Source of the DNA: Bacteroidota bacterium
GTDB taxonomy: Bacteria > Bacteroidota > Bacteroidia > Flavobacteriales_D > Sanyastnellaceae
Direction of reading: 5' to 3'
NCBI GenBank assembly: GCA_027624855.1
Contig: JAQBTQ010000001.1
Span: 62,001-126,000, forward strand
DNA: 64,000 nucleotides
How positions within the stretch are numbered: position 1 is the stretch's first letter; every line of letters begins with the position of its first letter. Below the pieces are notes generated by a model. The model was not told the DNA's origin, did not search any database, and saw only the letters and a program-made list of their open reading frames with translations. Shown piece after piece: positions 33,133-52,634 of this stretch. The position numbers and the translations under genes are program-made.

Positions 33133-36100
33133 ATGTCAGTCTCCTCATTTTCAGAATTTTTGCGAGTAATCCCCCCCTCCTTATTGGTCATATTCATGGC
33201 TTTGAGCATTGGACAAGTGCGCTCACAAGGATTATTCAGCAATGTTTCAGAATCCTCCGGAGTTGCCGTTGATGGGATTCACCATGCTGTTGCGATCGGT
33301 GATTTTGATAATGATGGAAGAGAGGACATTTACGTTGGAACCAAATTCGCCGCCAACAGCTTGTTCCGGAATGTGGGTGACATGCATTTCGAAGAAGTTG
33401 CCGTTCCTGCAGGAGTCGCGGACCCCTCCACCACCAACGCTGTGATTTGGGGAGACTTCAACAACGATGGTTGGCTTGACCTCGTCACCGGAAACTACCT
33501 CCAAGCCAATCGCCTTTACATCAATCAAGGAGACGGCACGTTCGAAGATGCTACAGCATCATGGAATGCTGGGAATGAAGGGCCTTGCCGAAGCTTACAC
33601 GCCGCTGATTTCGATCAAGATGGATGGCTCGATTTATATGTGGTCAACATCAACAGCCACAATGCCATGCTGCGAAATGTTGGAGGGACAGGATTTGAAA
33701 ACATCACCTTTCCTACGAACACCGTGGATACCGGCATCGGAATGGGCGCCTTGTTTTTCGACTCTGACAATGATGGCGATGTGGATTTGTATTTGACCCA
33801 CGACGGAAATCAAGTCAATAAATTTTACCGCAACAATGGGAATGGCTCGTTTTCGCAAGTCGCTAGCGAAGTGGGGTTGGATTATCAAGGAAATTGCATG
33901 GGAGTCGATGCCGCGGACATCAATCACGATGGCTGGATGGATTTGTACATCACGGATTTGTATCCGAGCGAACTGTTCATGAACAATGGCGATGGCACCT
34001 ACACCGCCTTAGCTGAGGAAGCAGGTGTCGACGATTCGGGCATGACATGGGGCTGCATCTTTTTTGATTACGACCATGACTCCGAATCCGATTTGTACAT
34101 CGTCAATGACTATGCCTTTGCACCCCTGCCGAATCGCTTGTATCGAGGACTTGGGGACGGCACATTTGAGTGGGTAAGTGAAGGCGACTCCATTCTGAAT
34201 CACAACCACTCTGATTATGGACTTGCCGCGGCGGACTTGGATGGTGACGGCGATTGGGATTTAGCCATCGCGACGCCGGGGTCACCCACTCAACCGGGCT
34301 TTCAGATTTTAGAAAACCTGAATGAATCAGGGCATTTCATTGGCTTTTCCTTGGAAGGAACGTCTTCCAATCGCTCGGCCATTGGAGCACGCGCTGCAGT
34401 GCATTTTGCTGACCAAGTGCGTTACGACGAAGTCCACTGTGGGCAAGGGTACAGCGGTGCGAGTTCTTTGCAATTGCATTTTGGTCTAGGAGAAGAAACT
34501 TTCGTTGACTCCCTTGTCATTCGCTGGCCAAATGGAATGGAGTCCGTTCATGGTCCTTTAGCAGCAGACACCGTACATCATATTATCGAGCCCTTTGCTG
34601 AACCATGGTTCTCCAATGGATGCACCGACCCCTCCGCTTGCAATTATCACATCGCAGCCATCGAGGATGATGGCAGTTGCTATTATCCATTGGCAGGCCA
34701 AAATTGTGACAACGAGGCGCTCGAAGGCTTCCCTACCATTGCATCGCACAGCATCGCACGACTATGGAATGAAGCTGCACTCATTTCCATTCGCAATGAT
34801 TGGGCGAGACCAACAGTTCACGCGCGGAATTTGTGGCATGTCTCAGCATTGATGTACGATGCGTGGGCGGCTTGGATGGACTCTTCGGCCGTCACGCCCG
34901 AACCCTATTTACTTGGCAATACAATAGGCGATTACGATTGCCCTTATGATGGAATGGAGCTGGATTTGGATTCTGTCGACGTCCTCCAAGCGCGCCAACT
35001 GACCATCAGTTACGGAGCTTATCGATTACTCAAGCACCGGTTTGAAAACGCTCCACGCAGCGAGCTCATCTCCGTTCATTTGAATTCCCAAATGGAACAA
35101 CTCGGTTATGATACTGCAATCACCTCGACCCAATATCAAGTCGGAACTTGGGATCAGAAGGCAATTGCATTGGGAAATTATTTGGCACAGCAATACATCG
35201 GGTTCGGTCTTCAGGACGGATCATTTGAAGAAATCGACTACCAGAACACCTACTACAATCCCATGAATTGGAACTTGGTAATGGATGAACCAGGCAATCC
35301 AAACATGTTCTTTCCCAATCGCTGGCAGCCCTTACAACTGGCTGAATTCATTGATCAATCAGGGAATTCAGGCTCAAATATTTCACCGGAATTCCTAAGT
35401 CCAGAATGGGGCAATGTGCAACCATTTGCTATGACCATGGCCGATACCAGTCTATATACTAGGCTTGGAGGTCAATACACGGTATACCATGACCCCGGAA
35501 TGCCGCCACAAATTGATCCAAACGAAAGCATCGGTTTGCAAAGTGATTACAAATGGGGACATTCATTGGTCGGTATTTGGTCGGCGCATTTGAATCCTGA
35601 AGACTCTGTGATGTGGAACATCAGTCCAGGAGCTTATGGATTATATGGCTCCATTCCATCCAACTCGACCGAAGCGCGCATTTATTACGCTGACGAAGGT
35701 CCTCCGGCTTTCACAGAAAATACGCCAGGCCATCCATTCAATCCTTCAACTGGCGAACCCTATCCCGAACAATGGGTGAAGCGAGGTGACTTTACAAGGG
35801 TTTTAGCTGAATACTGGGCGGATGGACCCGATTCCGAGACCCCACCTGGTCATTGGTTCACTTTGTTGAACTACGTGAATGATCAGCCTACAATTCAGCG
35901 CAAATGGAGAGGTTTGGGAGAAACCATGGATCCTTTGGATTGGGACGTACTTGGATATTTCGCCATGGGAGGAGCCATGCACGATGCGGCGGTTGCGGCA
36001 TGGAGTTGCAAAGGGTGGTACGATTATGTCCGGCCCGTCTCAGCGTTGCGATGGATGGCCGATCAAGGCCAGTGTTCTGACCCGGAGCTCCCCAATTACC

Positions 36101-36876
36101 ATGGAGCTGGACTTCCTATCATTCCAGGTGTCATCGAATTAATTGCCGCTAATGATCCCGTCGAATTGCGAGGAGAAAACGACGAGTTTTTGAATGAATT
36201 GAAAATTTACTGTTGGAAAGGACCTGAATTCATCGAAGTTCCTGCGCTCGATGTGGCGGGTGTTGGATGGATACGCGCCCAGGAATGGTGGCCCTACCAG
36301 CGCCCAACATTTGTAACCCCGCCCTTTGCTGGATATGTGAGCGGACATTCAACGTTTAGTCGAGCCGCTGCGGAAGTTTTGACAAGTTTGACTGGAGACT
36401 CCTTCTTCCCGGGCGGCGTCGGTACCGTTTCCATTGAGGCCCATGAATTTCTGGTATTCGAAGATGGGCCAAGTGAAGATTTTGAATTGCAATGGGCGAC
36501 CTACCGGGACGCGGCCGATCAAAGCGCGTTCTCCAGAATTTGGGGTGGCATTCATCCACCGCAAGATGATTATCCAGGTCGAATGATAGGAGAAGTCGTA
36601 GGTTTAGATGCCTTTCTGTTGGCTGAGCAATACGCCTTTCCTCTGCTTGCCAATCCTTGCTTTGAATTCGGCGAATCGGGATGTTTATGCCCGGGCGACT
36701 TCAATTCCGATGGAGCGCGGAACATGCCAGATCTCCTTCTGTTGCTCATTCATTTTGGAGAAAATGTCTCACTGTCAGGGGAAGGAGCATCTCCGGTGCT
36801 TGACTTGGACGGCAGTGGAGCCATTGGCACAGGCGATTTATTGGGGATGTTGACGGTTTGGGGACAACCTTGTTAA
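33133..36876 (+). CDS. Secreted FG-GAP/ASPIC and vanadium-haloperoxidase-like fusion protein
   Basis: 1247 residues. Signal peptide 1-32. Residues 45-400 hold about seven FG-GAP/VCBS repeats with Ca-binding loops (DFDNDGREDIYVG, DFNNDGWLDLV, DLDGDGDWDLA). Residues 410-475 are an ASPIC/UnbV domain. A disulfide motif follows at 497-516 (CTDPSACNYH...DDGSCYY). Residues 530-1170 resemble vanadium haloperoxidase/PAP2 acid phosphatases: K960-x6-R967P, SGH (1070-1072, with Val replacing the usual Pro before it) and S1134-R-x5-H1141-x3-D1145. The C-terminus (1185-1247) is a dockerin-like pair of calcium loops ending in Cys. Oxidation of halides or phosphate ester cleavage are both possible. Confidence 0.85.
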   Translation: MSVSSFSEFLRVIPPSLLVIFMALSIGQVRSQGLFSNVSESSGVAVDGIHHAVAIGDFDNDGREDIYVGTKFAANSLFRNVGDMHFEEVAVPAGVADPSTTNAVIWGDFNNDGWLDLVTGNYLQANRLYINQGDGTFEDATASWNAGNEGPCRSLHAADFDQDGWLDLYVVNINSHNAMLRNVGGTGFENITFPTNTVDTGIGMGALFFDSDNDGDVDLYLTHDGNQVNKFYRNNGNGSFSQVASEVGLDYQGNCMGVDAADINHDGWMDLYITDLYPSELFMNNGDGTYTALAEEAGVDDSGMTWGCIFFDYDHDSESDLYIVNDYAFAPLPNRLYRGLGDGTFEWVSEGDSILNHNHSDYGLAAADLDGDGDWDLAIATPGSPTQPGFQILENLNESGHFIGFSLEGTSSNRSAIGARAAVHFADQVRYDEVHCGQGYSGASSLQLHFGLGEETFVDSLVIRWPNGMESVHGPLAADTVHHIIEPFAEPWFSNGCTDPSACNYHIAAIEDDGSCYYPLAGQNCDNEALEGFPTIASHSIARLWNEAALISIRNDWARPTVHARNLWHVSALMYDAWAAWMDSSAVTPEPYLLGNTIGDYDCPYDGMELDLDSVDVLQARQLTISYGAYRLLKHRFENAPRSELISVHLNSQMEQLGYDTAITSTQYQVGTWDQKAIALGNYLAQQYIGFGLQDGSFEEIDYQNTYYNPMNWNLVMDEPGNPNMFFPNRWQPLQLAEFIDQSGNSGSNISPEFLSPEWGNVQPFAMTMADTSLYTRLGGQYTVYHDPGMPPQIDPNESIGLQSDYKWGHSLVGIWSAHLNPEDSVMWNISPGAYGLYGSIPSNSTEARIYYADEGPPAFTENTPGHPFNPSTGEPYPEQWVKRGDFTRVLAEYWADGPDSETPPGHWFTLLNYVNDQPTIQRKWRGLGETMDPLDWDVLGYFAMGGAMHDAAVAAWSCKGWYDYVRPVSALRWMADQGQCSDPELPNYHGAGLPIIPGVIELIAANDPVELRGENDEFLNELKIYCWKGPEFIEVPALDVAGVGWIRAQEWWPYQRPTFVTPPFAGYVSGHSTFSRAAAEVLTSLTGDSFFPGGVGTVSIEAHEFLVFEDGPSEDFELQWATYRDAADQSAFSRIWGGIHPPQDDYPGRMIGEVVGLDAFLLAEQYAFPLLANPCFEFGESGCLCPGDFNSDGARNMPDLLLLLIHFGENVSLSGEGASPVLDLDGSGAIGTGDLLGMLTVWGQPC

Positions 36877-36887
36877 GGCAGTTCAAT

Positions 36888-39131
36888 TCAATGTTTCTGA
36901 TGAACGACTAACTCATCCATGAAAATCCACGTGGATGAACTCGCCGCGTCATGCCAATCCGGACAAGGACCGGGGTTCATGGCTTCAAATCGTATGAAAC
37001 GCGCCTCCTCCTCTACGCCATACGACGTCCGAATCACTTCCTGAGCATCATTGGGTTCCAGAGCGCTATATCCATTGGATAAAGAATTCACCAACCAATT
37101 GCCCTTCCAAGAGACTCCATCTATTGACCATTGAAATCTGATCGAATCTGGAACGAAAATCCACGCGTCCTGATACAAGTAAAACTGCATGCTCAATGAA
37201 TCGATCGATATCGCTTTTTCCAAGTCCACCTCGACCATCATATTCTCCCCTTGTGCAGCTTGCCACGAACCATCACGAAAATCCAACGAGCCCAGTCGCC
37301 CGTCGGACAATCCTTGGACTCCACGACCTGGATAATATTCATTGATTGCATGTCCAATCTTCACCGGTTTGAATGCCCCAACATGGCCTGCAATTGGAAA
37401 CTCCAAGCCACCTCCCATTTCTTCTCCATTGCGCGTCAAGGCAACACGAATGACGCCCTCTTCACAAATAACGGCTGAGTCTTGCAGATTAAAAGCTACC
37501 TCATCTCGTACGTCATTCACAGGCCAAAAAACCGCCGTACCTCCCACCCCTTTCATGGCCGGCTCGAATTGTACTTGAATGCACCCATCATCTGTGCTGG
37601 TCCTCCAATCCAGAGATAGCGGAACCGTCTCCCAACCGTAATCCACTTCCCACGCATCCAATCGATCGTAGTGTTTATCCATGCGATTTTGAAACGCCTG
37701 CCAATTGCGTGTTTCTTTTGAACTCCACAAAACCTCTGACATGGCCACCATCCGAGGGAACACTTTAGAGTCTACCAATGCTTGAGGCGCATGTTCTGAC
37801 CACATATTGCACTCGCCACCCAAGATCCTTCCTTCGCCTTCGAGACCTTCTGGAACGGGCTCAAATCCGTAGACTTCCTCCATGTCTGTTGATTCTACGG
37901 GGTAGTCAAAATAACAATGAGAAGTGGGAGACATGATGGCGTCGTGGCCTGCGGCAACAGCTGCCAACCCTCCTTCCATTCCCCTCCAAGATTGAACAGT
38001 GGCTCCTTCTGGCAATCCACCCTCCAGAATTTCGTCCCAGCCAATCATTTTGCGGCCATGACTTTCCAGGTATTGACCAATTTCACCAATAAACCAGGAC
38101 TGGAGTTCGTGTTCATCATGGAGTCCATGATCGCGCATTCGATTTTGGCATTTAGCACATGCCTCCCAGCGCACTTTTGGCGCTTCATCTCCACCGATAT
38201 GAATGTAGGTTGAGGGAAAGAGCTCCATCACCTCATCCAGCACGGTGCGCAAGAAAACAAACGTTGTATCCTGTCCCGCGCAATAGATGTCTTTAAAAAC
38301 ACCCCAGTCATTTGGCACTTCCATGGCTTCTCCTGTGCAGCCAAGCCATGGGTATGAAGCCAACGCGGCGCTGCTATGTCCTGGCAATTCAATTTCAGGG
38401 ATGATGGTAACATTTCGCATTTCAGCATAGGCGACGATCTCTCGAATTTGCTCTTTGCTGTAAAACCCTCCGTGCGTCGTACCATCCTTTTCGGTTCTCC
38501 AAGCCCCTTTTTCAGTCAACTCTGGGTACGCATCAATTTGAATTCGCCAACCTTGATCCTCGGTGAGGTGCCAATGCAAGACATTCATTTTATGCAAAGC
38601 CAACAAATCAATCATGCGCTTGACATAATCCGGTTCCATAAAATGCCTACAGCAATCCAGCAGCAATCCCCTATGCTCAAACCGGGGGTAATCATCAATG
38701 ACGCCACAAGGCAGCCGGACCGCATCCGTTTGGACTTGAGGGAGCATCAACCTCAGCGTCGTTAACCCATGAAACACCCCAGCTTCTTCGGTCGCTGAAA
38801 GCAACACCCGATCTGACCTAATTTCAAGATGATATCCTTCTTGAGTCAACCCCTCTACCCGCTCAATTTCAAGAGGAATTGACGGCCCCGATTCTGAATG
38901 AAAATCAGTCGTCAGCCAGTCGTGCCATTGTTCTTTCAACGGACTCCAATCGCTCGGCATCATCAACTCCCAAGCACCATTGCACTCCAAATAGGAATCG
39001 ACTTCAAATTTTTGGAATTGGGGATTCGGCACAATACTTGAATCGTGAACGAAAGGTGCGGACGCTTCACATCCCAGCATTCCGACAAACCCCACCAACA
39101 AACATCGCACAATGAATTTTCTCGCCTGCAT
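36888..39131 (-). CDS. GH20 beta-N-acetylhexosaminidase lipoprotein
   Basis: 747 residues from the ATG at 39131. The lipobox is GMLGC (lipidated Cys21), so it is anchored in the envelope. The N-terminal GH20b domain covers about 35-145 and the TIM barrel 148-490. The catalytic pair is Asp315-Glu316 in HIGGDEAP, preceded by HWHLTEDQGWRI and PEIELPGHS. The C-terminal ~150 residues are a beta-sandwich of F5/8 type. It releases GlcNAc or GalNAc from chitin, peptidoglycan or glycan ends. It is the last gene of the SSS-kinase-nucleotidyltransferase operon (28 bases after the previous stop). Confidence 0.94.
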   Translation of the reverse strand: MQARKFIVRCLLVGFVGMLGCEASAPFVHDSSIVPNPQFQKFEVDSYLECNGAWELMMPSDWSPLKEQWHDWLTTDFHSESGPSIPLEIERVEGLTQEGYHLEIRSDRVLLSATEEAGVFHGLTTLRLMLPQVQTDAVRLPCGVIDDYPRFEHRGLLLDCCRHFMEPDYVKRMIDLLALHKMNVLHWHLTEDQGWRIQIDAYPELTEKGAWRTEKDGTTHGGFYSKEQIREIVAYAEMRNVTIIPEIELPGHSSAALASYPWLGCTGEAMEVPNDWGVFKDIYCAGQDTTFVFLRTVLDEVMELFPSTYIHIGGDEAPKVRWEACAKCQNRMRDHGLHDEHELQSWFIGEIGQYLESHGRKMIGWDEILEGGLPEGATVQSWRGMEGGLAAVAAGHDAIMSPTSHCYFDYPVESTDMEEVYGFEPVPEGLEGEGRILGGECNMWSEHAPQALVDSKVFPRMVAMSEVLWSSKETRNWQAFQNRMDKHYDRLDAWEVDYGWETVPLSLDWRTSTDDGCIQVQFEPAMKGVGGTAVFWPVNDVRDEVAFNLQDSAVICEEGVIRVALTRNGEEMGGGLEFPIAGHVGAFKPVKIGHAINEYYPGRGVQGLSDGRLGSLDFRDGSWQAAQGENMMVEVDLEKAISIDSLSMQFYLYQDAWIFVPDSIRFQWSIDGVSWKGNWLVNSLSNGYSALEPNDAQEVIRTSYGVEEEARFIRFEAMNPGPCPDWHDAASSSTWIFMDELVVHQKH

Positions 39132-39159
39132 GCTGCAAAATACGGGTCCCATGCTCAAT

Positions 39160-40659
39160 TCAACGATTAAACCATGAACGAACCCGTTCCGAACTCACTC
39201 GATTGACCGTTCCATCAAATATTGGGAGCTCTACCTTTTCTGACGACCTGCAGGATGCATGAAAGTGCTCCACACCCACAGCTTGCCACTGAGCCATTTG
39301 GTTTGGCATGACACCACTTCCAACGGTCACCTCAAATCCCAGTTTAACCAATTCCTCAATTCGATCAATTCCATCAATTGCATGCATTTCACCTCCGCTT
39401 GTAAGGAGCCTCAGAACACCCAATTCCATAAGGTCGCTGACCGTTTTCTCCCAGTTCGAACTCGCATCAATTGATCGATGAATGACCAACCGATGCGCTC
39501 CAAACGATTTCACCCAATGGCCCAACAATTCCATATCCAAGTCGCCACGGTCGTCCAACGCTCCGACCACCACTCGCGCCGCACCAGCTTGCAGCGCAGA
39601 TCGAATCTGCTCGGTCATCCAAGATTTTTCTGCATCTGAATAGCTGAAATGTCCTGCACGACAGCGAATCAAGGCATGCACAGGAATACCGGATTTGACG
39701 GACAGCCGCAAATCTGTCTCAGGCGATGTAAGGCCTCCGCATTCCCAATGTGCACACAACTCCACTCGGTGAGCACCGGCCTTCATCGCTAGCTCCACGT
39801 CTTCGGGTGAACTTGCGCAAACTTCCAACTGAAATGGCTCCATGATATTGAGTCCTTCTTGAACCGACGCAACATCCTGAAGTTGAGTCAAATCAAGCAC
39901 AGGCGCCGCGATATCGAGTTTTTCAATGGCATGACCATCTTCCATCATGGCCTGAAGCGCTGTGGGCAATTCCAATTCGCCACGATCAGGATGAGGCTGC
40001 AACGAATTCAAATAAGGCATCAATTTGGATCCGTTCAACCGGAAAATATTCATGGAGACCCGAACAGTCCCCTTCTTTTCCAATTCTTTGACGAAAGATT
40101 CAGTGGGTTTCTCTACAATTTGATTGACCCAATGGTCATCCCCTTCGATCACCGCAAATGCCATGGTCTTTTTTGGATCCAATCCAAGGGCATATCGGTC
40201 ATAAGCAAGCAAAGCCTGTCCATCAGGAGCAGATCGCAAGCGAGCCAGAGCTTCTCTTGTGGGTAAATTATCTCCGTTGCATAAAATCCAAGCTTTGTCA
40301 TCAGAGACCGGATCTTGTTCCAAAGCCATTTTGACCGCGTGTCCGGTTCCCAAAGGTTGCGCTTGAATCACACAACGCATTCGCATGCGAATTCCCGGTC
40401 CTTTTTGGTTCCAATCTGCAACGAAGGCTGGGGTCAGCTCATCTTCGGGTCCAATCACGATCGTGGCCTCCGTGAATCCTGCACGCAATGATTGTTCCAA
40501 GATAAATTGCAACATCGGCTCACGATTGGGACCAACACGAAGCATGGGTTTGGGTCGATTCAATGCTTCGTCGGACAAAACGGATTGCATGCTCTCCGCA
40601 CTGCGTTTCATTCGGCTTGACCTTCCAGCAGCTAAAATGATGATTCGATTGCAATTCAT
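39160..40659 (-). CDS. Sugar nucleotidyltransferase fused to a CutC-family domain
   Basis: 499 residues. Residues 1-272 are a sugar-1-phosphate nucleotidyltransferase: ILAAGRSSRMKR (8-19), RPKPMLRVG (35-43, Lys37), QAQPLGTGHAV (99-109, typical of UTP-using enzymes) and LCNGDN (126-131, metal Asp). Residues 277-495 are a complete CutC TIM barrel: LEVCASSPEDVELAMKAGAH, RVELCAHWECGGLTS and the HRSIDASSNW/LTSGG segments. CutC was linked to copper, but its enzymatic role is unproven. Fusion to an uridylyltransferase-like domain beside a sugar kinase points to sugar metabolism. It overlaps the kinase gene by 4 bases. Confidence 0.9.
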   Translation of the reverse strand: MNCNRIIILAAGRSSRMKRSAESMQSVLSDEALNRPKPMLRVGPNREPMLQFILEQSLRAGFTEATIVIGPEDELTPAFVADWNQKGPGIRMRMRCVIQAQPLGTGHAVKMALEQDPVSDDKAWILCNGDNLPTREALARLRSAPDGQALLAYDRYALGLDPKKTMAFAVIEGDDHWVNQIVEKPTESFVKELEKKGTVRVSMNIFRLNGSKLMPYLNSLQPHPDRGELELPTALQAMMEDGHAIEKLDIAAPVLDLTQLQDVASVQEGLNIMEPFQLEVCASSPEDVELAMKAGAHRVELCAHWECGGLTSPETDLRLSVKSGIPVHALIRCRAGHFSYSDAEKSWMTEQIRSALQAGAARVVVGALDDRGDLDMELLGHWVKSFGAHRLVIHRSIDASSNWEKTVSDLMELGVLRLLTSGGEMHAIDGIDRIEELVKLGFEVTVGSGVMPNQMAQWQAVGVEHFHASCRSSEKVELPIFDGTVNRVSSERVRSWFNR

Positions 40660-41726
40660 TTGCGTCTTTCTACTGTTACACCCACCGCACCCAATTTAAT
40701 CGGAATGGCGCTGTAATGTTGCTGTTTGAATGAATCTAACAAAGCATTTCGTTGTTCTTCGGCAACAACCACAAAGGCCGTTCCACCCGCACCGCTTCCA
40801 TTCATTTTTCCACCGAAGGCTCCCATTGATTTAGCCAATGAAAGCATGGTGTCGATCCTTTTTGTAGAGACGCCGAGGCCATTGGACAGCCATTGATGAT
40901 GCTCTGACAACAGCGATCCAAGGGATGACAAACTCGATGCCTCGTCATTTATGCAATCCCCCCCTTTTTGTGAAACCGCTCGAATGGCAACGGTCGCCTC
41001 CATGAGTCTTCCATCTTCCACACTCCACTCCGTCGGAATTTTGGGGAGGATTTCTGGCCATTTTTCGCCGACCTCAACACCCCATTGCTCCAATAGTTGA
41101 AGCCGCTTATTTTTTGCTCGGGCAAGGATTCCCAAGGTGTCCTTCGGCTCTTCTGAATTTAACAAAATCCAAGCACCACCGGGGACAGGCAATGTTTCGG
41201 TTTCAAAGTGCGGTCGGAAACGCACCAATCGAACGCCTCCCATCGAACAGAGCACTTGATCCATCATTCCTCCTGGCTCATTGAACCACTGGACCTCAGC
41301 TCTCCAAGTGGCATGAGCGATCCATTCCCGATCTGACTCGGAATCGATGGAGCGTCCAGCAAAACTTGCAATGAGTGCACACCAGGAAGCGGTCAAGGCA
41401 CTTGAGCTGCTCGCCCCCGCTTCTTGAGGAATGTCACTGCGCACCTTAGCGTTCCATCCTCGTTCAGGCAACCATCCTTCTTCTCTGGCAACGTGCAAGG
41501 CTGAAAGCCAATACTGTCTGGCTGTTGGTTCTGGCAATTCATCCAAATTCCATTCGAACACCTCACCCAAATCCAACAACTCCAATCGAACCAGCCTATC
41601 ATTTCTACTAGTGCCTTCTATGGTCGCCCTGAGATCGATTGATGCAGCCACAACCGGAAAACCAAAGTAATCTTGGTGTTCACCAAAAAGGCAAATGCGC
41701 CCTGGCGCAGAAACGCTCAAATTCAT
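40656..41726 (-). CDS. GHMP-family sugar kinase, galactokinase-like
   Basis: 356 residues. Motif 1 is APGRICLFGEHQDYFG (7-22), close to the galactokinase GRxNLIGEHxDYxGG signature. Motif 2, the phosphate loop, is PQEAGASSSSALTAS (100-114). Motif 3 is GGKMNGSGAGG near residue 315. Galactokinase-type members phosphorylate the anomeric C1 hydroxyl of galactose, GalNAc or other sugars. With a GH20 hexosaminidase and a nucleotidyltransferase alongside, an N-acetylhexosamine 1-kinase role is likely but inferred. ATGA overlaps link it to both neighbours. Confidence 0.88.
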   Translation of the reverse strand: MNLSVSAPGRICLFGEHQDYFGFPVVAASIDLRATIEGTSRNDRLVRLELLDLGEVFEWNLDELPEPTARQYWLSALHVAREEGWLPERGWNAKVRSDIPQEAGASSSSALTASWCALIASFAGRSIDSESDREWIAHATWRAEVQWFNEPGGMMDQVLCSMGGVRLVRFRPHFETETLPVPGGAWILLNSEEPKDTLGILARAKNKRLQLLEQWGVEVGEKWPEILPKIPTEWSVEDGRLMEATVAIRAVSQKGGDCINDEASSLSSLGSLLSEHHQWLSNGLGVSTKRIDTMLSLAKSMGAFGGKMNGSGAGGTAFVVVAEEQRNALLDSFKQQHYSAIPIKLGAVGVTVERRK

Positions 41727-43498
41727 GATCGGCGTCGGTTGAGCAAGAATACAGCAGCACCAGAGCTAACAGCGACCCCGGTCAGAATCATGGCTTGGAT
41801 TGTTTCCGAATAAATCCAAGAGCCCGTCGCAATCAATGCTGCATAGACACCAATGCTTCCCAAGACCATGGACAAAACCCCTCTTGGCACGGCCCAAGAG
41901 CTCGTCACGTGATCTTCAGACCAACGCCTCCACCCTGGACCACCTGGGTTCACTGTACGCACGAATTTTTGCAATGTCACTTCGGATTCTGGCGGAGTCA
42001 ACCACGTCGCCAAAAGCCAAATCAACGTGGTCAAAAGCGAACCCCAAATGAGTTTTTCGTGATCCGCCAACAAGGGAACCAGAGCTACGGGCTCAGTGGC
42101 AAGCGCGTCGTGCACGAATGTGAAATAGCCGGCAACAAGCAACGACCCGAGCATGGCCACCAATTCTGTCCATGCGTTGATTCTCCACCAGAACCAACGC
42201 AAAATGAACAGCCCTCCAGTTCCCGCTCCAATAAGAAGAAGGAGATTGAATGCTTGCTCTGCATCGGTCAACATCAATCCAAGACCACTTCCTAAGACCA
42301 AAGAAATTATCGTGGCCAAACGCCCAGCCAAAACTTGTTGCGAATCTGTCGCATCAGGCTTGATGAATCGCACGTAAAAATCATTCACCAGGTAACTCGC
42401 TCCCAAATTCAATTGCGTCGACATCGTACTCATAAATGCCGCCAAGAGCGATGCCGTCACCAATCCGAGCAATCCCGTCGGCAAAAGGGAGAGCATAGCA
42501 GGATAAGCAAGGTCATGCCCCACTTTATCAGCTGGTATATCCGGAAATGCCCGTTGAATGTCGGTCAATTCAGGGAACACGATCAATGAAGCCAGTGCAA
42601 TCAGAATCCAAGGCCAGGGTCGTAAGGCATAATGCGCAACATTAAAAAGCAACGTAGCGCCGACAGCGTGTGACTCATTTTTCGCACTGAACATCCGCTG
42701 TGCGATGTATCCACCCCCGCCCGGTTCCGCTCCAGGATAATAACTGGACCACCATTGGACAGCCAATGGAACGAGCAAAATGGGTATCCATTGGCTCGGG
42801 TCGGATAAATCTGGCCACATGGCGGTCTTACTCATCACATTTTCGTGGGTCAATAGAGCCTCCAACCCTCCCACATCATCAAGATTTAAAATGAACCAGC
42901 AAGCCCAAATCGAACCGACCATGGCCAAGATGAACTGCACAAAATCCGTCAAGATGACTGCGCGTAGTCCTCCCAAGGTGCTATACGCTAGCGTAATTAA
43001 TCCCGTTACCAATAGGGTTTGCCAGCCAGGCCAACCCAACAAAATTCCGCCCAATTTGATGGCAGCGAGTGAGACCGCGCCCATCACCAACACGTTAAAA
43101 ACCAAGCCCAAATACAAGGCCCGAAACCCTCTGAGCACGGCAGCAGGTTTCCCTCCATAACGAAGTTCGTAAAACTCAATGTCTGTCATCACCCCTGATC
43201 GCCTCCACAATCGAGCGTAGACAAACACCGTCAGCATACCGGTCAAAAGGAATGCCCACCAGCCCCAATTGCCGCTGACTCCGTTTTCACGAACCAACCC
43301 GGTCACCAAGTTTGGAGTATCTGTAGAAAAGGTCGTAGCCACCATGCTCACACCCAGCAACCACCACGGCATGCTTCTTCCTGCCAAAAAGAAATTCGAA
43401 ACACTCTTGCCAGATGTTCTCGAAGCCCACAGACCTACGCCCAAGGCCAAAGCAAAATAAGCGCCAATAATCAACCAATCCAATGAGGTAATCTCCAT
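41723..43498 (-). CDS. Sodium:solute symporter (SSS family)
   Basis: 591 residues with about 13-14 membrane helices. The N-terminal DWLIIGAYFALALGVGLWAS and the NFFLAGRSMPWWLLGVSM segment are typical of SSS transporters. TTFSTDTPNLVTG and AAFMSTMSTQLNLGASYLVNDFY fit the Na+ and substrate sites. It probably imports the monosaccharide freed by the GH20 enzyme using the sodium gradient. It is the first gene of the operon; a TATTCTTG box lies 4 bases before its ATG. Confidence 0.92.
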   Translation of the reverse strand: MEITSLDWLIIGAYFALALGVGLWASRTSGKSVSNFFLAGRSMPWWLLGVSMVATTFSTDTPNLVTGLVRENGVSGNWGWWAFLLTGMLTVFVYARLWRRSGVMTDIEFYELRYGGKPAAVLRGFRALYLGLVFNVLVMGAVSLAAIKLGGILLGWPGWQTLLVTGLITLAYSTLGGLRAVILTDFVQFILAMVGSIWACWFILNLDDVGGLEALLTHENVMSKTAMWPDLSDPSQWIPILLVPLAVQWWSSYYPGAEPGGGGYIAQRMFSAKNESHAVGATLLFNVAHYALRPWPWILIALASLIVFPELTDIQRAFPDIPADKVGHDLAYPAMLSLLPTGLLGLVTASLLAAFMSTMSTQLNLGASYLVNDFYVRFIKPDATDSQQVLAGRLATIISLVLGSGLGLMLTDAEQAFNLLLLIGAGTGGLFILRWFWWRINAWTELVAMLGSLLVAGYFTFVHDALATEPVALVPLLADHEKLIWGSLLTTLIWLLATWLTPPESEVTLQKFVRTVNPGGPGWRRWSEDHVTSSWAVPRGVLSMVLGSIGVYAALIATGSWIYSETIQAMILTGVAVSSGAAVFLLNRRRS

Positions 43499-43502
43499 AG
43501 AA

Positions 43503-43510
43503 CAAGAATA
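43503..43510 (-). promoter_or_regulatory. Probable -7 box for the hexosamine operon
   Basis: TATTCTTG on the minus strand differs from TAnnTTTG at one base and lies 4 bases before the symporter ATG at 43498. It sits in the 22-base gap after the MmcQ/YjbR gene, so the operon may be transcribed separately as a leaderless mRNA. Confidence 0.4.
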
Positions 43511-43520
43511 GGCAATGGGG

Positions 43521-43880
43521 CTAGAAACCGAGCAATTTCTGCTGTTTTTTTGAAAACCCTCGGATCACACAATCATAGCTGTGGTCGATTAGTTCCAAGA
43601 CCAACTTCCTTGAGACATCGCTTTCGGCAAGCACAGTATTCCAATGATTCTTGTTGGCGTGCCAACCGGGAATCACCCCTTGAAATTGCTCCCGCAATTC
43701 GACCGCACGCTCGGGATCGCACTTGAGCGTCACTCCCGAAAATTCATCCAGATCAGCCACCGCAAAAATCTTCCCGTTCACTTTCCATACGCAAGTGTGG
43801 CCGTCAAATGGAAAGCCCTCGGTTGCATGCATTTTATCGAGACAATGCTCACGAATTTCCTCGAATTCAAAACTTCTCAT
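43521..43880 (-). CDS. MmcQ/YjbR family protein
   Basis: 119 residues. The family pattern is present: EGFPFDGHTCVWKVNGKIFA (about 21-40), a VTLKCDPE segment, the PGWHANKNHWNTV motif (about 71-83) and LIDHSYDCVIRGFSKKQQ. YjbR proteins have a CyaY-like fold and are often called DNA-binding; the role is not established. It is 22 bases upstream of the symporter gene on the same strand and could be the head of that operon, although the symporter appears to have its own box. Confidence 0.9.
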   Translation of the reverse strand: MRSFEFEEIREHCLDKMHATEGFPFDGHTCVWKVNGKIFAVADLDEFSGVTLKCDPERAVELREQFQGVIPGWHANKNHWNTVLAESDVSRKLVLELIDHSYDCVIRGFSKKQQKLLGF

Positions 43881-43934: not shown

Positions 43935-44858
43935 ATGCGATTCACTTTACCTCTTTTGACCCTTGTCATGTCATTTCCACTGCTTATACAAGCTCAGTGT
44001 AGCGACATTTTTATCTCAGAATATTGCGAAGGAACCGGCAACAACAAAGGAGTCGAATTCTACAACCCAACAGGCGAGGCCATTGACTTATCATCGTATC
44101 AGCTGCAGCGATGGAGCAATGGTGAAGGCACTGCAACAGATTGGGTCGACTTGATTGGCACCATTGAAGCCTACGGCACTTGGGTACTCGTCAATGGACA
44201 AACGGAAGATGTCGATCTCGGCGGTGGAGCCACCTCACCCGCTTGCGATCCTGCCATGCAGGCCTATGCCGACCAACTTGACAACCCCTATCCAGCACCG
44301 ACCTACATGAATGGTGATGACGCATTGGTTTTGGTAAAGAATGAAACCACTGTCGTGGACATTTTTGGCAAGCCCGGCGAAGACCCTGGAGTGGCGTGGA
44401 CCAATGATGAAGCCAACGGATTCATTGACATCGGTGACGGCGCCGCATGGCTTACGTCGAACCACACCTTACGTCGGAAGTACGACGTGATGCAAGGGGT
44501 GACCGTTCCGCCTGTTTCCTTCAATACCTTTTTGGAATGGGATACATTATCCGTAAATACCTGGGACGGTTTGGGAATGCATGCTTGCGGTTGCAATCCC
44601 AATTCAATTGAACAATTCCACGGGATTGAAACGTCCGTTTTCCCAAATCCATCGAATACCGGTTCGATCACAATTCAGGCAAACGCAGCCATTCAGGGAA
44701 TTACCGTTCACAGTGCCGATGGGAAATTGATTCGAGAGGAAAACCTGGGAACCGGGATTCGCCAATTTGACTTAAGCGGATTGTTACCTGGCTCTTACTT
44801 CGTCAATTTACGCATGACCGCTGGGCAAACATTCGCCCATCGCATTTTGGTGCAGTAA
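43935..44858 (+). CDS. Secreted lamin-tail-domain protein with T9SS sorting domain
   Basis: 307 residues. Signal peptide 1-20 (cleavage after LIQAQ/AQ). Residues 21-150 are a lamin-tail domain: IFISEYCEGTGNNKGVEFYNPTG, IDLSSYQLQRWSNGEG, WVLVNG. Residues 234-307 are a type A T9SS sorting domain (VFPNPSNTGSITIQ, then SGLLPGSYFVNL and HRILVQ at the end). Lamin-tail domains often occur in extracellular nucleases and phosphatases; here it is free-standing. It is followed 9 bases later by the TonB receptor and then the PLD enzyme, suggesting a surface-displayed partner of these. Confidence 0.86.
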   Translation: MRFTLPLLTLVMSFPLLIQAQCSDIFISEYCEGTGNNKGVEFYNPTGEAIDLSSYQLQRWSNGEGTATDWVDLIGTIEAYGTWVLVNGQTEDVDLGGGATSPACDPAMQAYADQLDNPYPAPTYMNGDDALVLVKNETTVVDIFGKPGEDPGVAWTNDEANGFIDIGDGAAWLTSNHTLRRKYDVMQGVTVPPVSFNTFLEWDTLSVNTWDGLGMHACGCNPNSIEQFHGIETSVFPNPSNTGSITIQANAAIQGITVHSADGKLIREENLGTGIRQFDLSGLLPGSYFVNLRMTAGQTFAHRILVQ

Positions 44859-44867
44859 AGCATTGCT

Positions 44868-47714
44868 ATGCAAAAAATTCTGGTCACAGGCTTAGCCATT
44901 TTGCTGAGCTTAGCTTCTTGGGCTCAAACGGGCACCCTGACAGGGACAATTTCAGACGCCATCACTGGGGAGTCTTTGATTCAAGCGAGCGTTTTAGTCG
45001 GCAAAACAGGTGTTGCAACCGATTTCGACGGCAAGTATTCAATCTCGCTTCCTTATGGACAACACGAGATTACGGTTCAGTACATTGGTTATGAAAACCA
45101 AACTCGCACGATCACCATCGATCGAGGGTTGGTTCAGGCCAACTTCAAGCTGAGCACCATCGTCTTACAAGAGGCCGAGGTCATTGCCGACGTCGCCATT
45201 GAGCGCGAGACGCCCGTCGCTTTCTCGAACATCAAACCCGTTCAGATCCAAGAGGAATTAGGCTCCCAGCCCATCCCCATGATTTTGAACAGCACGCCTG
45301 GTGTTTATGCCACCCAAGCGGGATCAGACGATAACGGGCCTTCCATTTCCATCCGCGGCTTCAAGCAAAGGAATGTTTCAGTGTTGGTTGATGGCATTCC
45401 CGTCAACGACATGGAGAGCGGTGCGGTCTTTTGGAATAACTGGTTTGGGTTGGATTTGGTGACCCAAACCATGCAAGTCCAGCGCGGTCTCGGCGCCTCC
45501 AAACTTGCTTTGCCGGCCATCGGCGGAACAGTAAATATCGTGACTTCAGGAATCGAATCATCCAGAAAAACTTCAGTCAAACAAGAAGTTGGAAGCTTCG
45601 GATTTACCCGAACTTCCATTGGCCATACTTCAGGTCGATTGGATGGCGGTTGGGGCTACACCCTGGCGGGCAGCTTCCAAAATCGACAAGGTTATTTCGA
45701 TCAGGATTACAACCGTGCCTTTTTCTATTATTTGAAGATCCAGAAAGCCATTGGCAATCATACTTTTTCGGTTAGCGCAACCGGCTCTCCTTCTGAGAAC
45801 GCGGCACGCGGGTATCAACAGCGGATAGCGACCCACAACAAAGACTACGCGCGTTCGTTGTTTAACGGTTCCGAAGCGGACTATGAGCGACTCAGAGGAT
45901 ACAGTGTTGCCTATGACGCCATTTTTAATGATGGCACATTGCTTCAACAACAGGAGCTGGCGGCGTATGATTCGCTCAATGCTTTGTACGGTTATGCATC
46001 TGTAGACGACTTTGAGGAGGAGGTTTCAATGAGCGACTTCATCGATACCACGGGGCTCGTCAGTTATGGAAACAAGTACAATGTGCATTGGGGCATGCTC
46101 AATGACGAGGTCCTCTATGAGCGTCAAAACAAGTACCACAAGCCCCTATTCTCGTTCCGCCATAGCTGGAGAGCTTCGGAAAAACTTTACATCTCCAACA
46201 TGGCTTATGCCAGTTATGGTTATGGTGGTGGAACGCGATTGGAAAACAGCTTGGGTGGAGGAGATTACACCCCAAACGGCCAAGTTGACTTTCAAAAGTT
46301 CTACAACTCCAACACCATTGGAGGTTTGTTCGGCCCTCCCATTGATCCCACTTACAGCGATTCTTTGTTGAAGTCCGGTCGCATTCTGAGAAAACTCTAC
46401 AACAACCACTATTGGTACGGAGTGCTCTCAACCTTCCGGCATGAAACTTCTGAATCCTTAACCATTTCAGGCGGCCTGGACTTCAGGACGTATCAAGGTG
46501 AACATTATGCGGAAGTCTTTGACTTACTTGGAGGCGACTATTTCGTGGACACCCGCAATGCCAACGCTTCCACCAACATGCGTTTTGTAGGCGACAAAAT
46601 CGGCTACCACAATGACGCGTTCGTGCGCTGGGGCGGCGCCTTTGCATTGCTCGAGTACAAAGGCTACCTCTGGAACGCCTTTTTGAACATCAGTGCTGTT
46701 TCTCAAGGCTACAAAAGCGTTGATTATTTCGCAGAAATGCAGGAAGATGGCACCTTCACAACCAGCGGTTGGAAATGGATTCCTGGCTATACAATTAAGA
46801 CGGGCGGCAACTACAACTTGAGTGAGTATGCCAATACGTTTGTCAACGTCGGTCATCTCAACCGCACGCCAGTCTTCCGCAACGTCGTTGACTTTGAAAA
46901 TCAATTCGTCGAGAACACCGAAAACGAACGAATCAATTCAATTGAATGGGGATACAGTTACAGCAAATTCCCATTTAGTGTGAATGTGAACGCCTACTAC
47001 ACGGATTGGCAAAACCGGCCATTGCAGTCACTGCTCCGATTTGAAACTGTTGAAGGCGACATCGTTCGTGCCAACGTCAACTCCATGAGCGCCTTGCACA
47101 AAGGATTGGAAACCGATGTCGCGTGGCGCGTGCACCCTTCATTGACCGTGGAAGGGTATATCAGCTTAGGCGATTGGCGCTGGACCAGCTCAGAGGATAG
47201 CCTGGTGCTGCTGGATGACGACAGCAACCTGCCCTACATCGATGCCGAAGGCAACCCCGCCATTGTGCAGTACAATGCAGAAGGCGTTTCCGTTGGTGAT
47301 TCGCCACAAAGCCAGTACAGCGTGTCGCTTAAGTACTCTTTCAAAAAAATCTACATCAAGCCGCGCTATACAGTCTTCAGCCGACACTACGCCGACTTCG
47401 ATCCCTTCAGCTTGAACGGTGAAAACGAAGGACGCCAATCATGGCAAATCCCCACCTATGGACTATTGGATCTCCATGCGGGTTACAATTTTGACGTCAA
47501 TGAAACCAACATGGACGTGCGCTTGAGTGCTTTCAATATCTTGAACACTGTATACCTCAGTAACGCACAAAACAATGACGCTTATGGGGAATGGTACTTC
47601 ACCGACCCCGACCGCAAATACGCCTTCAGCGAAAACAATTTTGACGCTGGTTCGGCCAGTGTTTATATGGGTTACGGATTCCGAACCAACCTCAGCATCC
47701 GCATCCGATTTTAA
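44868..47714 (+). CDS. TonB-dependent outer membrane receptor
   Basis: 948 residues. Signal peptide 1-19, carboxypeptidase-D-regulatory-like domain 20-100 (GTLTGTISDAITGESLIQAS, DFDGKYSISLPYGQHEITVQYIGY), plug domain about 110-230 (ISIRGFKQRNVSVLVDGIPVND, VQRGLGASKLALPAIGGTVNIVTSG), then a long beta-barrel ending in FRTNLSIRIRF, a typical outer-membrane-protein C-terminus. No SusD partner follows, so it is not a classic polysaccharide utilisation locus. Flanked by a lamin-tail protein and a secreted PLD enzyme, it probably imports products of phosphodiester breakdown; that is inference. Confidence 0.93.
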   Translation: MQKILVTGLAILLSLASWAQTGTLTGTISDAITGESLIQASVLVGKTGVATDFDGKYSISLPYGQHEITVQYIGYENQTRTITIDRGLVQANFKLSTIVLQEAEVIADVAIERETPVAFSNIKPVQIQEELGSQPIPMILNSTPGVYATQAGSDDNGPSISIRGFKQRNVSVLVDGIPVNDMESGAVFWNNWFGLDLVTQTMQVQRGLGASKLALPAIGGTVNIVTSGIESSRKTSVKQEVGSFGFTRTSIGHTSGRLDGGWGYTLAGSFQNRQGYFDQDYNRAFFYYLKIQKAIGNHTFSVSATGSPSENAARGYQQRIATHNKDYARSLFNGSEADYERLRGYSVAYDAIFNDGTLLQQQELAAYDSLNALYGYASVDDFEEEVSMSDFIDTTGLVSYGNKYNVHWGMLNDEVLYERQNKYHKPLFSFRHSWRASEKLYISNMAYASYGYGGGTRLENSLGGGDYTPNGQVDFQKFYNSNTIGGLFGPPIDPTYSDSLLKSGRILRKLYNNHYWYGVLSTFRHETSESLTISGGLDFRTYQGEHYAEVFDLLGGDYFVDTRNANASTNMRFVGDKIGYHNDAFVRWGGAFALLEYKGYLWNAFLNISAVSQGYKSVDYFAEMQEDGTFTTSGWKWIPGYTIKTGGNYNLSEYANTFVNVGHLNRTPVFRNVVDFENQFVENTENERINSIEWGYSYSKFPFSVNVNAYYTDWQNRPLQSLLRFETVEGDIVRANVNSMSALHKGLETDVAWRVHPSLTVEGYISLGDWRWTSSEDSLVLLDDDSNLPYIDAEGNPAIVQYNAEGVSVGDSPQSQYSVSLKYSFKKIYIKPRYTVFSRHYADFDPFSLNGENEGRQSWQIPTYGLLDLHAGYNFDVNETNMDVRLSAFNILNTVYLSNAQNNDAYGEWYFTDPDRKYAFSENNFDAGSASVYMGYGFRTNLSIRIRF

Positions 47715-47725
47715 AACCTAACCGC

Positions 47726-49918
47726 ATGAAACAACTTCTCACCTCCCTCCTCTGCCTCGCGGCATTCACCGCTTGGGGCCAAACGGACATCCTCGACGCG
47801 CGCACCAATTATGGCGTAGGTCAAACGGTCACTGTTACTGGAATTGTGACGTCCGATGGCAACCTCGGCATCGTTCGTTACCTGCAAGATGAAACAGCGG
47901 GCATTGCACTTTACCCAGGTGGACAATGGACACAAAATGGGTGGCCTGATCCGCAACCTGGTGATGAATTGACAATGACAGGTGCACTCAGTGAGTACAA
48001 TGGATTGCTAGAGGTGGGACCTGACGGGATTACAGAAGTTACCGTCATTTCCAGTGGAAACGCTCTCCCCGAGTTCCAAACGATTTCTCCCGCGGAAATG
48101 AATGAAACCATGGAAGGCGAATTGGCCTTCATTGAAGGGGCGGTGTTTACCAATGGCGGAACCATTATTACCGGAAACAGCACCTTTAGCTTTAGCGCGG
48201 CGGGTGAGGACGGCATCATATACGTTCGCAACGACAATGAATTGGTAGGACAAGTCCTTCCCGCTGGCGAAGTGGACTTGTACGGCGTGGTATCGCAATT
48301 CTCCTTTGATGGAGTAGGCGGATATCAATTGCTGCCGCGCGGCAACTCCGATTTGGTGCCCACATCAGCCATAAACTTGAGCACCCAAGTCGACCAGATC
48401 AACATTGAGACAGCAAGTTTTGATTTGGTCTGGAACACCGATGTACTGGGCGACTCACACGTTGAATATGGACTGACACCCGACCTCGGCATGGAAGTCG
48501 TTGATGACACGCAAGTGCTTGAACATCAGGTGGCGCTCGAAGGGTTGGAGCCTGGCACTATTTATTACGCTCGCGTCATTTCAATTGCAGGAGAAGATTC
48601 CACTGCGTCGACCATTCGACCTTATGCAACCGTTTCTGAATCTCCCGGATACATCCGTGCGTATTTCACCACGCAGGTAGACAACAGTGTAGCGACCATT
48701 GAGAATGCCGAAGCACTTGGCACCAATACCAATGACACCATTGCGGCCTACATCACATCAGCGCAAAGCACCCTCGACATTGCGGCGTACAACATCAACA
48801 ACTCCGCCATCGAGCAGGCCATCAACACGGCCATCGCCAATGGCGTTCAAGTGCGTTATATCGCTGAAGGGCAAAATGCCAATTTGGGATTGAGCGCCAT
48901 TGACGACAGCATGCCTGTTCATTTCCGGATGGACGGAGAAGGCAGTGGGATGCACAACAAGTTCATTGTGGGCGACCGCGACGACGCGCAAAACGCCTTC
49001 GTCCTCACAGGTTCGACGAACTTCACCACCGGTAACTTGAACACCGACCCCAACAACGTCATCATCTTGGGCGACCAAAGCTTGGCGCGTGCCTATACCC
49101 TCGAATTCGAGGAAATGTGGGGCTCGTCTGGAATGGAACCCGATCCAGAAAACTCGAAGTTTGGCTCGGCCAAAACGATCAACACCCCGCGCAGATTCAT
49201 CATTGGCGGCAGCCCGGTGGAGTTGTACTTCTCCCCCACGGACGGCACAACGAACGCAATTCTCGAAGCCATCGAAACGACAGACTATGATTTGTCTTTC
49301 GCACTGTTGAGCTTCACACGCAACGACCTCGGCGCGGCTGTAATCGAGGCGGGCTCAAGCTTGTTCATCAATCCGCGAGGTGCCATGGAAAACATCAATG
49401 ATAGCGGATCAGAATACGAGGCATTGTTGGACGCCGGCATCGAGGTCTACTCACACCAAGGCATTTCCGGTCAATTGCACCACAAATATGCCGTGGTCGA
49501 TCACAGCCAAGCGTTGTCTGATCCGACCGTGGTGACAGGTTCTCATAACTGGTCCACAACGGCAGAAACCACCAACGACGAAAACACCCTGGTGATTCAT
49601 GATGAACGTATTGCAAACCTCTACTTTCAATCCTTCCAAGGCTTGTTGAACGGAATGGGAGTTGGTCTGCAAGAGGCGCTTGATATGCAGACAGTTTGTA
49701 CCGTATATCCGAACCCTGCGCGTGATCAGATTATGCTGCAGCTGCAGGATCCAGGTCAAATTGGGCAACGATTTACTTTGAGGGATGCAAGCGGTCGTAT
49801 GGTATTCGATATTCTAGTGAATACGACTATCCAAAGCATTCACTTGGGGCAACTGGCTTCAGGCGTTTACCTCATGCAATATGGATCGAGCATGACCGAG
49901 CGATTGGTCATTCAATAA
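47726..49918 (+). CDS. Secreted phospholipase D-superfamily nuclease-like protein with OB-fold and T9SS sorting domain
   Basis: 730 residues. Signal peptide 1-18. Residues 25-210 look like an OB-fold of the YhcR/DUF5689 type (TVTVTGIVTSDGNLGIVRYLQDE, TGALSEYNGLLEV). Residues 215-310 are a fibronectin/purple-phosphatase-like domain. Two PLD half-sites follow: His410-x-Lys412-x4-Asp417 with GSTNFT, and His585-x-Lys587-x4-Asp592 with GSHNWS. A type A sorting domain ends the protein (VYPNPARDQIMLQL...RLVIQ). PLD enzymes with OB-folds can cut nucleic acids; lipid phosphodiesters are the alternative. It closes the three-gene set (11 bases after the receptor). Confidence 0.9.
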   Translation: MKQLLTSLLCLAAFTAWGQTDILDARTNYGVGQTVTVTGIVTSDGNLGIVRYLQDETAGIALYPGGQWTQNGWPDPQPGDELTMTGALSEYNGLLEVGPDGITEVTVISSGNALPEFQTISPAEMNETMEGELAFIEGAVFTNGGTIITGNSTFSFSAAGEDGIIYVRNDNELVGQVLPAGEVDLYGVVSQFSFDGVGGYQLLPRGNSDLVPTSAINLSTQVDQINIETASFDLVWNTDVLGDSHVEYGLTPDLGMEVVDDTQVLEHQVALEGLEPGTIYYARVISIAGEDSTASTIRPYATVSESPGYIRAYFTTQVDNSVATIENAEALGTNTNDTIAAYITSAQSTLDIAAYNINNSAIEQAINTAIANGVQVRYIAEGQNANLGLSAIDDSMPVHFRMDGEGSGMHNKFIVGDRDDAQNAFVLTGSTNFTTGNLNTDPNNVIILGDQSLARAYTLEFEEMWGSSGMEPDPENSKFGSAKTINTPRRFIIGGSPVELYFSPTDGTTNAILEAIETTDYDLSFALLSFTRNDLGAAVIEAGSSLFINPRGAMENINDSGSEYEALLDAGIEVYSHQGISGQLHHKYAVVDHSQALSDPTVVTGSHNWSTTAETTNDENTLVIHDERIANLYFQSFQGLLNGMGVGLQEALDMQTVCTVYPNPARDQIMLQLQDPGQIGQRFTLRDASGRMVFDILVNTTIQSIHLGQLASGVYLMQYGSSMTERLVIQ

Positions 49919-51431: not shown

Positions 51432-51475
51432 AGATGGAACCATTTGGTATCCAAAGTAATAAAAATATAAATGCA

Positions 51476-52615: not shown

Positions 52616-52634
52616 CTTACCAATGTACGAAGAA

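Follow-up and report, generated by a model that had tools for sequence, protein, structure and literature searches.

An operon that looks like a direct route from an amino sugar to a nucleotide sugar in a marine Bacteroidota bacterium, and a suggested amino-sugar role for CutC

We analyzed 64,000 nucleotides from a Bacteroidota bacterium of the family Sanyastnellaceae (GenBank assembly GCA_027624855.1, contig JAQBTQ010000001.1, positions 62,001 to 126,000; hereafter the window). The window contains a four-gene operon that encodes an SSS-family symporter (SSS), a GHMP kinase of the galactokinase type (KIN), a fusion of a nucleotidyltransferase to CutC (NT.CutC), and a GH20 β-N-acetylhexosaminidase. 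This operon of a marine bacterium looks like a route by which an amino sugar is taken up and turned straight into a nucleotide sugar. The reading that we favor, with somewhat better than even confidence, is anomeric salvage of an N-acetylhexosamine (HexNAc), most likely N-acetylgalactosamine (GalNAc), by way of HexNAc-1-phosphate to the uridine diphosphate (UDP) sugar UDP-HexNAc. The results also suggest, from gene neighborhoods and fusions, that CutC, a family with a human member and a name taken from copper, in fact acts on amino sugars.

In the proposed route, the GH20 lipoprotein at the cell surface would free terminal β-HexNAc, SSS would bring it in with Na+, KIN would phosphorylate it at C1, and the NT domain would move uridine monophosphate from uridine triphosphate (UTP) to the resulting HexNAc-1-phosphate to give UDP-HexNAc. 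CutC would act on free HexNAc, ahead of the kinase. A GalE-type epimerase encoded elsewhere would interconvert UDP-GalNAc and the corresponding N-acetylglucosamine (GlcNAc) derivative, UDP-GlcNAc, for cell-envelope synthesis, with no NagA or NagB step. A sequence-only reading of this DNA had proposed much the same pathway, and comparison with other genomes and structures supported its release, SSS import, C1 phosphorylation, and UTP-type transferase; the reactions themselves, the sugar, the direction of flux, and the role of CutC are what we infer. Together, the findings suggest a compact bacterial route that starts from GalNAc in the environment, leads to UDP-HexNAc, and is built on a GHMP kinase.

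Conservation of the operon and alternative fusions

The operon is conserved in the genus and is not a chance occurrence. The fusion was matched along its length in 20 of 22 genus genomes (the window's own genome, G000, included). Among these, the fusion of G021 breaks off at residue 472, close to the end of its contig, and that of G019 was flagged with one TAG, yet the same contig reads as an open frame of 505 amino acids (locus L106). The exceptions were G004, which has only a fragment, and G007, which has no match to the fusion and likewise none to KIN or GH20; this genome is 95% complete, and the absences would be explained by joint loss or by a single contig that is missing. The order SSS-KIN-NT.CutC-GH20 was found in 14 of 16 genus loci, the remaining two being cut by contig ends. 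The whole neighborhood is conserved within the genus, making synteny there uninformative about function; we therefore dropped it as functional evidence and used other genera and phyla instead.

The nucleotidyltransferase domain (NT) is fused to one or the other of two partners. In relatives from the same family (L061-L064, L068, L070), a single open frame of 614-661 codons encodes both KIN and NT (KIN.NT), and CutC, where present, is a separate gene. The window's genus and G073 have NT fused to CutC, with KIN as a gene of its own. KIN and NT were fused in nine of the named loci, and in five g27 loci (L065, L067, L069, L071, L072) they lie in different frames. That one domain has two alternative fusions is good evidence for a single pathway to which KIN, NT, and CutC would all belong. 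The KIN-NT pair occurs in Bacteroidota, Ignavibacteria, Marinimicrobia, and other phyla.

Two modules are combined in the operon: SSS-KIN-NT and CutC-GH20. The second module lies beside a GH2 gene, apart from KIN-NT, in G109 and G106 (L241 and L243). It is not a fixed pair, as L242, L244, and L245 have GH20 with no CutC in the fetched stretch.

Neighbors of the transporter, the kinase, and CutC

Relatives of the transporter and kinase genes in other phyla are found next to genes for an α-N-acetylgalactosaminidase family. We examined 80 loci from named genomes, the best 80 of 549 from an alignment search with KIN.NT; many of them are cut by contig ends, so the neighbor counts are lower bounds. 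SSS was directly upstream of KIN in 34 of the 80, and a Gfo/Idh gene was adjacent to SSS, KIN, or NT in 23. The GH109 C-terminal domain was present in 23 of the 24 members of the Gfo/Idh cluster, placing GH109 adjacent in at least 22 of the 80 loci, and a representative matched the α-N-acetylgalactosaminidase 2ixa (E 8e-145). Of the 80 loci, 12 have an SDR epimerase and 9 a ROK/NagC-like gene, each class being identified from one representative; the best matches of the epimerase include WbgU and WbpP, which we take to be UDP-HexNAc 4-epimerases.

The symporter itself points in the same direction. The window SSS shares 60-68% identity with nine symporters whose genes lie 0-4 nucleotides downstream of a GH109 gene, all from Marinimicrobia except that of L161 (bacterium TMED46); at most of these nine loci the gene in the place of NT is not matched by the window's NT. 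This likeness to GH109-coupled symporters makes GalNAc the best guess for the sugar, and SSS is probably a GalNAc or HexNAc importer. The sequence-only reading had left the choice between GlcNAc and GalNAc open, and the evidence narrows it to GalNAc as first choice.

Two features of these loci are worth recording. In Marinimicrobia-type loci (L126, L127, L135, L143, L147, L153, L157, L161, L164, L170), SSS-KIN is kept and the gene in the place of NT is unmatched by the window's NT; in L153 (9067-9951) it is another NTP_transferase, a possible non-orthologous replacement. Near KIN-NT in 10 of the 80 loci is a gene (cluster c6; L131:3523-6156) for a protein of about 860 amino acids that is probably secreted, has only a sub-threshold match to Melibiase and no sequence match in the PDB, and is possibly a new α-GalNAcase-like family.

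CutC of Bacteroidota is often beside N-glycan genes. CutC was present in 46 of 148 genomes of a draw from the phylum, and we examined 40 loci outside the operon (10 in relatives and, from the phylum draw, the best 30), taking the identities of flanking genes from representatives. CutC was flanked by glycosylasparaginase in 15, by a β-mannosidase-like GH2 in 8, and by GH20 in 7; at least one of the three was present at 24 of the 40 loci, in 21 of 33 genera (18 of 30 in the phylum draw alone).

These neighbors fit breakdown of the N-glycan core and raise the alternative that the anomeric route is the same but that its sugar is GlcNAc, derived from chitobiose or the N-glycan core, and not GalNAc. 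The CutC-GH20 genes beside GH2 at L241 and L243 point the same way, as does the cutC gene inside the Xanthomonas nix N-glycan cluster described in the passages of PMC6718126. Both GlcNAc and GalNAc can be products of GH20 enzymes, so that, with CutC going elsewhere with N-glycan enzymes, GlcNAc could be the main sugar. However, the transporter and kinase go with GH109 in other phyla, and KIN keeps the galacto-type signature GEHxDY. Weighing these, we consider GlcNAc a doubtful candidate for the physiological sugar and retain GalNAc.

CutC is also found with amino-sugar genes on plasmids and chromids. We examined 24 hand-picked named plasmid or chromid regions, several of them from related genera, with Enterobacterales left out (an unannotated E. 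coli region among them) and without a random-gene control, and asked for a strict amino-sugar gene within 3.5 kb of CutC. Such a gene was present in 17 of 24 regions: 13 of 18 annotated and 4 of 6 unannotated (L250, L252, L255, L256). There was none within this distance in the annotated regions of Parabacteroides, Enterococcus, Palleronia, Cetobacterium, and Entomospira or in the unannotated L251 and L253. The neighbors were glycosylasparaginase in Hymenobacter (three regions); GH20 in Peteryoungia, Loktanella, Kozakia, Allorhizobium, and two Rhizobium; nagA with SIS in Sphingomonas and two Sinorhizobium; nagB in Kozakia, Loktanella, and one Hymenobacter; MurQ in Qingshengfaniella; a NagK-like kinase in Asticcacaulis and Pseudoalteromonas; and, in two Paracoccus, an AgaS-family isomerase with a NagK-like ROK and a tagatose-bisphosphate aldolase subunit. 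Matches above model cut-offs were the nagA of L252, the nagB of Kozakia, and a MurQ subfamily model; those of the NagK-like (E 1e-69 and 7e-74; ROK 1e-64 and 2e-62) and AgaS-family proteins (4e-77 and 6e-76) were strong yet below cut-offs. An M81 metallopeptidase gene also recurs near CutC in alphaproteobacteria and one actinomycete (L248:782-2221, L269:868-2301, L264:70-1503; also in L250, L253, L255, and L256).

The CutC half of the fusion has the full fold (Z 30.6 to a solved CutC) and keeps E279, R298, E300, C302, R332, H394, R395, D398, and H467, each invariant among 44-47 aligned sequences. CutC is found with genes of both the 1-kinase route and the 6-kinase (NagK/NagA/NagB) route, for which the simplest substrate would be the free sugar. 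GH20 and glycosylasparaginase yield β-anomers and 1-kinases use the α form, which makes an anomerase one candidate for the activity of CutC.

Alternatively, CutC might be a copper protein or have a passive structural part, and be placed here by accident. The family name and annotation say as much, there was no amino-sugar or N-glycan neighbor at 7 of the 24 named and 16 of the 40 Bacteroidota loci, GH20 occurs without CutC in the stretches fetched for L242, L244, and L245, and E. coli cutC was outside the sample. The presence of such neighbors at the other CutC loci of both samples argues against accident, as do the conserved charged residues kept in the fusion. In the 18 annotated regions, CutC itself was the only gene with a copper annotation. 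Passages of PMC6538781 state that E. coli cutC mutants owe their copper sensitivity entirely to the small RNA MicL. The Xanthomonas nix cluster, in which cutC is read as copper resistance in the passages of PMC6718126, is an independent clade with CutC neighbors similar to those found here. We consider a copper or passive role unlikely.

Based on these comparisons, we tentatively propose, at a little short of an even chance, that CutC is an amino-sugar enzyme conserved from bacteria to humans and not a copper protein, and that it would act on free HexNAc before a C1 or C6 kinase, perhaps by anomerization or isomerization. Its fusion in this operon would then show this directly, since the uridylyltransferase to which it is joined would belong to a complete salvage route from GalNAc to UDP-HexNAc that bypasses glycolysis. 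The sequence-only reading had given the CutC half no role; we find it the most informative part of the operon. The co-location of cutC with N-glycan genes is already known, and we did not meet the metabolic reading of CutC in the literature searched. Since the neighbors point to N-acetylhexosamines in several bacterial groups, the question of CutC function becomes one that can be assayed at the bench.

Sugar activation and its metabolic setting

KIN has the features of a galactokinase-type sugar kinase. All three Pfam domains (GHMP N, GHMP C, and the galactose-binding signature) scored above cut-off, and R10, E16, H17, D19, and D156 were invariant in 48 of 48 relatives; we take these residues to be the R, E, H, and D of the galactokinase sugar site and the catalytic Asp, in agreement with an alignment to 1s4e. 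Structural comparisons, for KIN as for the fusion, were a re-examination of Foldseek matches and cover only the families listed among these. The KIN model (predicted local distance difference test score, pLDDT, 93.3) matched galactokinases with Z up to 39.9 (2.3 Å over 338 residues), human GalNAc kinase 2a2d with Z 37.7 (2.8 Å over 348 residues), and mevalonate kinases with Z 26.2-35.9. The galactokinase and GalNAc kinase values are close, and so structure does not choose the sugar. Mevalonate kinase was ruled out by these Z values and by the GEHxDY and MMD motifs, of which H-Q-D-Y and M-D are invariant in 48 of 48 relatives; the NCBIfam mevalonate models score KIN about equal to the galactokinase models, all below cut-off. 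We conclude that KIN is probably a HexNAc (GalNAc) 1-kinase.

NT is probably a HexNAc-1-phosphate uridylyltransferase that uses UTP. Its structural neighbors in the fusion model (pLDDT 88.5) are GlmU and UDP-glucose pyrophosphorylases, with Z up to 27.0. The sequence-only reading had relied on the motif QAQPLGTGHAV as a sign of UTP use; the motif alone is no proof, and the structural neighbors argue better for it. The bifunctional GlmU model TIGR01173 gave NT.CutC, whose second half is CutC, 42.1 bits against a cut-off of 366.85, and none of the KIN, NT, and KIN.NT proteins scanned reached an NCBIfam equivalog cut-off.

The genomes fit a route from HexNAc to UDP-HexNAc without NagB. The operon GH20 is the only GH20 match in the window genome, and 16 of 17 family genomes have one such match each. 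Its translation reads HIGGDEA, a GH20 catalytic domain with the Asp-Glu pair, which has a catalytic role in this family. Profile searches found NagB in 0 of 17 family genomes, the control being positive in 8 of 14, and a non-homologous deaminase would escape them; NagA above cut-off was likewise found in 0 of 17. The sequence-only reading had pointed out that the operon lacks both; NagB and above-cut-off NagA were missing from the genome and the family as well. GalE was above cut-off in 13 of 13 genomes; GlmU matches were present in all 13 but stayed below the cut-off in each.

The window genome also has a Gfo/Idh, GH109-like gene (L246:1681-3093) about 11 kb outside the window, and the GH109_C match is present in 15 of 17 family genomes. 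The match is too divergent for us to use this gene as proof that GalNAc is released; its protein is 32% identical to Marinimicrobia GH109.

Several observations weigh against GalNAc salvage as we propose it. The GH109-like gene scored 156 bits against 285 for that of G024. Weak amidohydrolase matches to the NagA model were present in 17 of 17 family genomes, and the absence of NagA and NagB is based on profile searches of incomplete genomes. The two modules can occur apart: G023 has SSS-CutC-GH20 without KIN-NT, and six g27 loci (L063, L065, L067, L069, L071, and L072, the last cut by a contig end) have SSS-KIN-NT with no CutC or GH20 in the fetched stretch. The Z values of 39.9 and 37.7 fail to separate galactokinase from GalNAc kinase. 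There was no second KIN match in the window genome, so its KIN could also take galactose.

In a galactose pathway, KIN would serve the organism as its galactokinase, and NT would be a UDP-galactose or UDP-glucose pyrophosphorylase. The top structural matches of KIN are galactokinases, the window genome has no other KIN match, UDP-glucose pyrophosphorylases are among the best matches of NT, and GalE is present. However, KIN scored 92.9 bits with the galactokinase equivalog model TIGR00131, under its cut-off of 226.65, and the GH20, GH109, and CutC neighbors are HexNAc enzymes or associated with them. Among 26 genomes with strong matches to KIN, a second and weaker kinase match is listed in at least 14; KIN is thus frequently accompanied by another galactokinase-like gene, which may be the true galactokinase there. 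We therefore regard a galactose pathway as improbable. A route for another sugar, by muramic acid recycling (AmgK/MurU), heptose (HddA/HddC), or uronic acid (glucuronokinase), shares the logic of a kinase and a nucleotidyltransferase, has weak HddA and HddC model matches and a comparable zebrafish glucuronokinase/pyrophosphorylase fusion (passages of PMC3938481) on its side, and seems very improbable, as HddA scored 27 bits against a cut-off of 600 and no heptose, uronate, or muramate gene was among the neighbor representatives scanned. AmgK is not known to be a GHMP kinase.

Locus layout and closest known systems

The four genes lie on one strand in the order given in the sequence-only reading, with ATGA overlaps at the first two junctions (SSS/KIN and KIN/NT.CutC), as Pfam and our reading of the sequence confirmed. 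The interval 39131-43510 assigned to the operon was too short: it ends at the first base of GH20, and the operon reaches 36888. The likely GH20 start is the ATG at 39131, 28 nucleotides past the NT.CutC stop and followed by a lipobox-like LGC.

Features of the operon and its upstream neighbor, in positions of the window
Feature	Position	Strand	Details
YjbR-family protein	43521-43880	minus	Pfam YjbR; 22 nucleotides upstream of SSS
SSS-family Na+/solute symporter (SSS)	41723-43498	minus	591 amino acids; Pfam SSF 7e-36
GHMP kinase, galactokinase type (KIN)	40656-41726	minus	356 amino acids; GalKase_gal_bdg, GHMP N, and GHMP C domains
Fusion NT.CutC (NTP_transferase and CutC)	39160-40659	minus	Pfam; CutC 8e-41
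NT half of fusion	39844-40659	minus	about residues 1-272; Pfam NTP_transferase
CutC half of fusion, TIM barrel	39160-39843	minus	about residues 273-499; Pfam CutC 8e-41
GH20 β-N-acetylhexosaminidase, probable lipoprotein	36888-39131	minus	Pfam 2e-111; frame 36888-39158

The YjbR gene was found in 14 of 16 genus loci, those that reach that far, and may be a fifth member of the operon, first in order. A gene (33133-36876, plus strand) that converges on GH20, in the 14 genus loci extending that far, encodes a probably secreted 1247-amino-acid protein with FG-GAP/ASPIC-UnbV repeats and a vanadium-haloperoxidase-like helical domain (VCPO_2nd, 30 bits). Divergent from the operon is a plus-strand cluster (43935-49918) for a 307-amino-acid protein, a TonB-dependent-receptor-like protein, and a 730-amino-acid protein; other genera have a set resembling it upstream of KIN and on the strand of KIN, as in L061 and L064. 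Beyond it, on the minus strand (49926-53618), are genes in a row for a CHU_C (type IX secretion, T9SS) protein, a di-haem cytochrome c peroxidase, and a metallo-β-lactamase-fold protein.

Among the open-access papers listed in our searches, we found no description of a GHMP-kinase/nucleotidyltransferase route for GalNAc in bacteria, and it may have been reported elsewhere. The canonical NagA/NagB and AgaS/AgaA pathways have identical input sugars. They phosphorylate at C6 and enter glycolysis, whereas NagB and above-cut-off NagA were not found in the 17 genomes of the window's family.

The nearest described system that we found, with the same purpose, is the GalNAc polysaccharide utilization locus BT4240-50 of B. 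thetaiotaomicron, with the GalNAc 1-kinase BT4240, GH109, GH2, and MFS (passages of PMC11992087). It too is in a member of the Bacteroidota, and in it GalNAc is freed by a dedicated glycosidase, imported, and phosphorylated at O1 by a dedicated kinase. In contrast to the operon described here, its kinase is of the APH family rather than GHMP and its transporter is MFS rather than SSS; the locus genes named in those passages include no nucleotidyltransferase or CutC, and a term search of the main text gave no UDP-GalNAc. The bifidobacterial lacto-N-biose/galacto-N-biose pathway (NahK) is similar in that a HexNAc-1-kinase feeds a UDP-sugar cycle. A phosphorylase and ABC import belong to that pathway. 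Its kinase, BL1642, differs in being a relative of the APH-type BT4240, according to the passages of PMC11992087.

In the Xanthomonas nix cluster, cutC shares a region with β-hexosaminidase and β-mannosidase genes. There, however, it is labelled copper resistance, and neither a 1-kinase nor a transferase nor a fusion is named in the passages of PMC6718126. A GHMP kinase and a nucleotidyltransferase share one chain in B. fragilis Fkp and in the zebrafish glucuronokinase/pyrophosphorylase (PMC3938481); their transferase is reported to be N-terminal, whereas the kinase is N-terminal in the KIN.NT relatives of this operon, and the sugars are different.

Human salvage by GALK2 and UAP1 likewise uses a GHMP-type GalNAc kinase, the structural match to KIN noted above. 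In that pathway, UAP1 is the UDP-GalNAc pyrophosphorylase that acts after GALK2. KIN is 20-21% identical to GALK2, and here the transferase is of the bacterial GlmU/UDP-glucose pyrophosphorylase type and is encoded in one operon with the symporter, CutC, and GH20.

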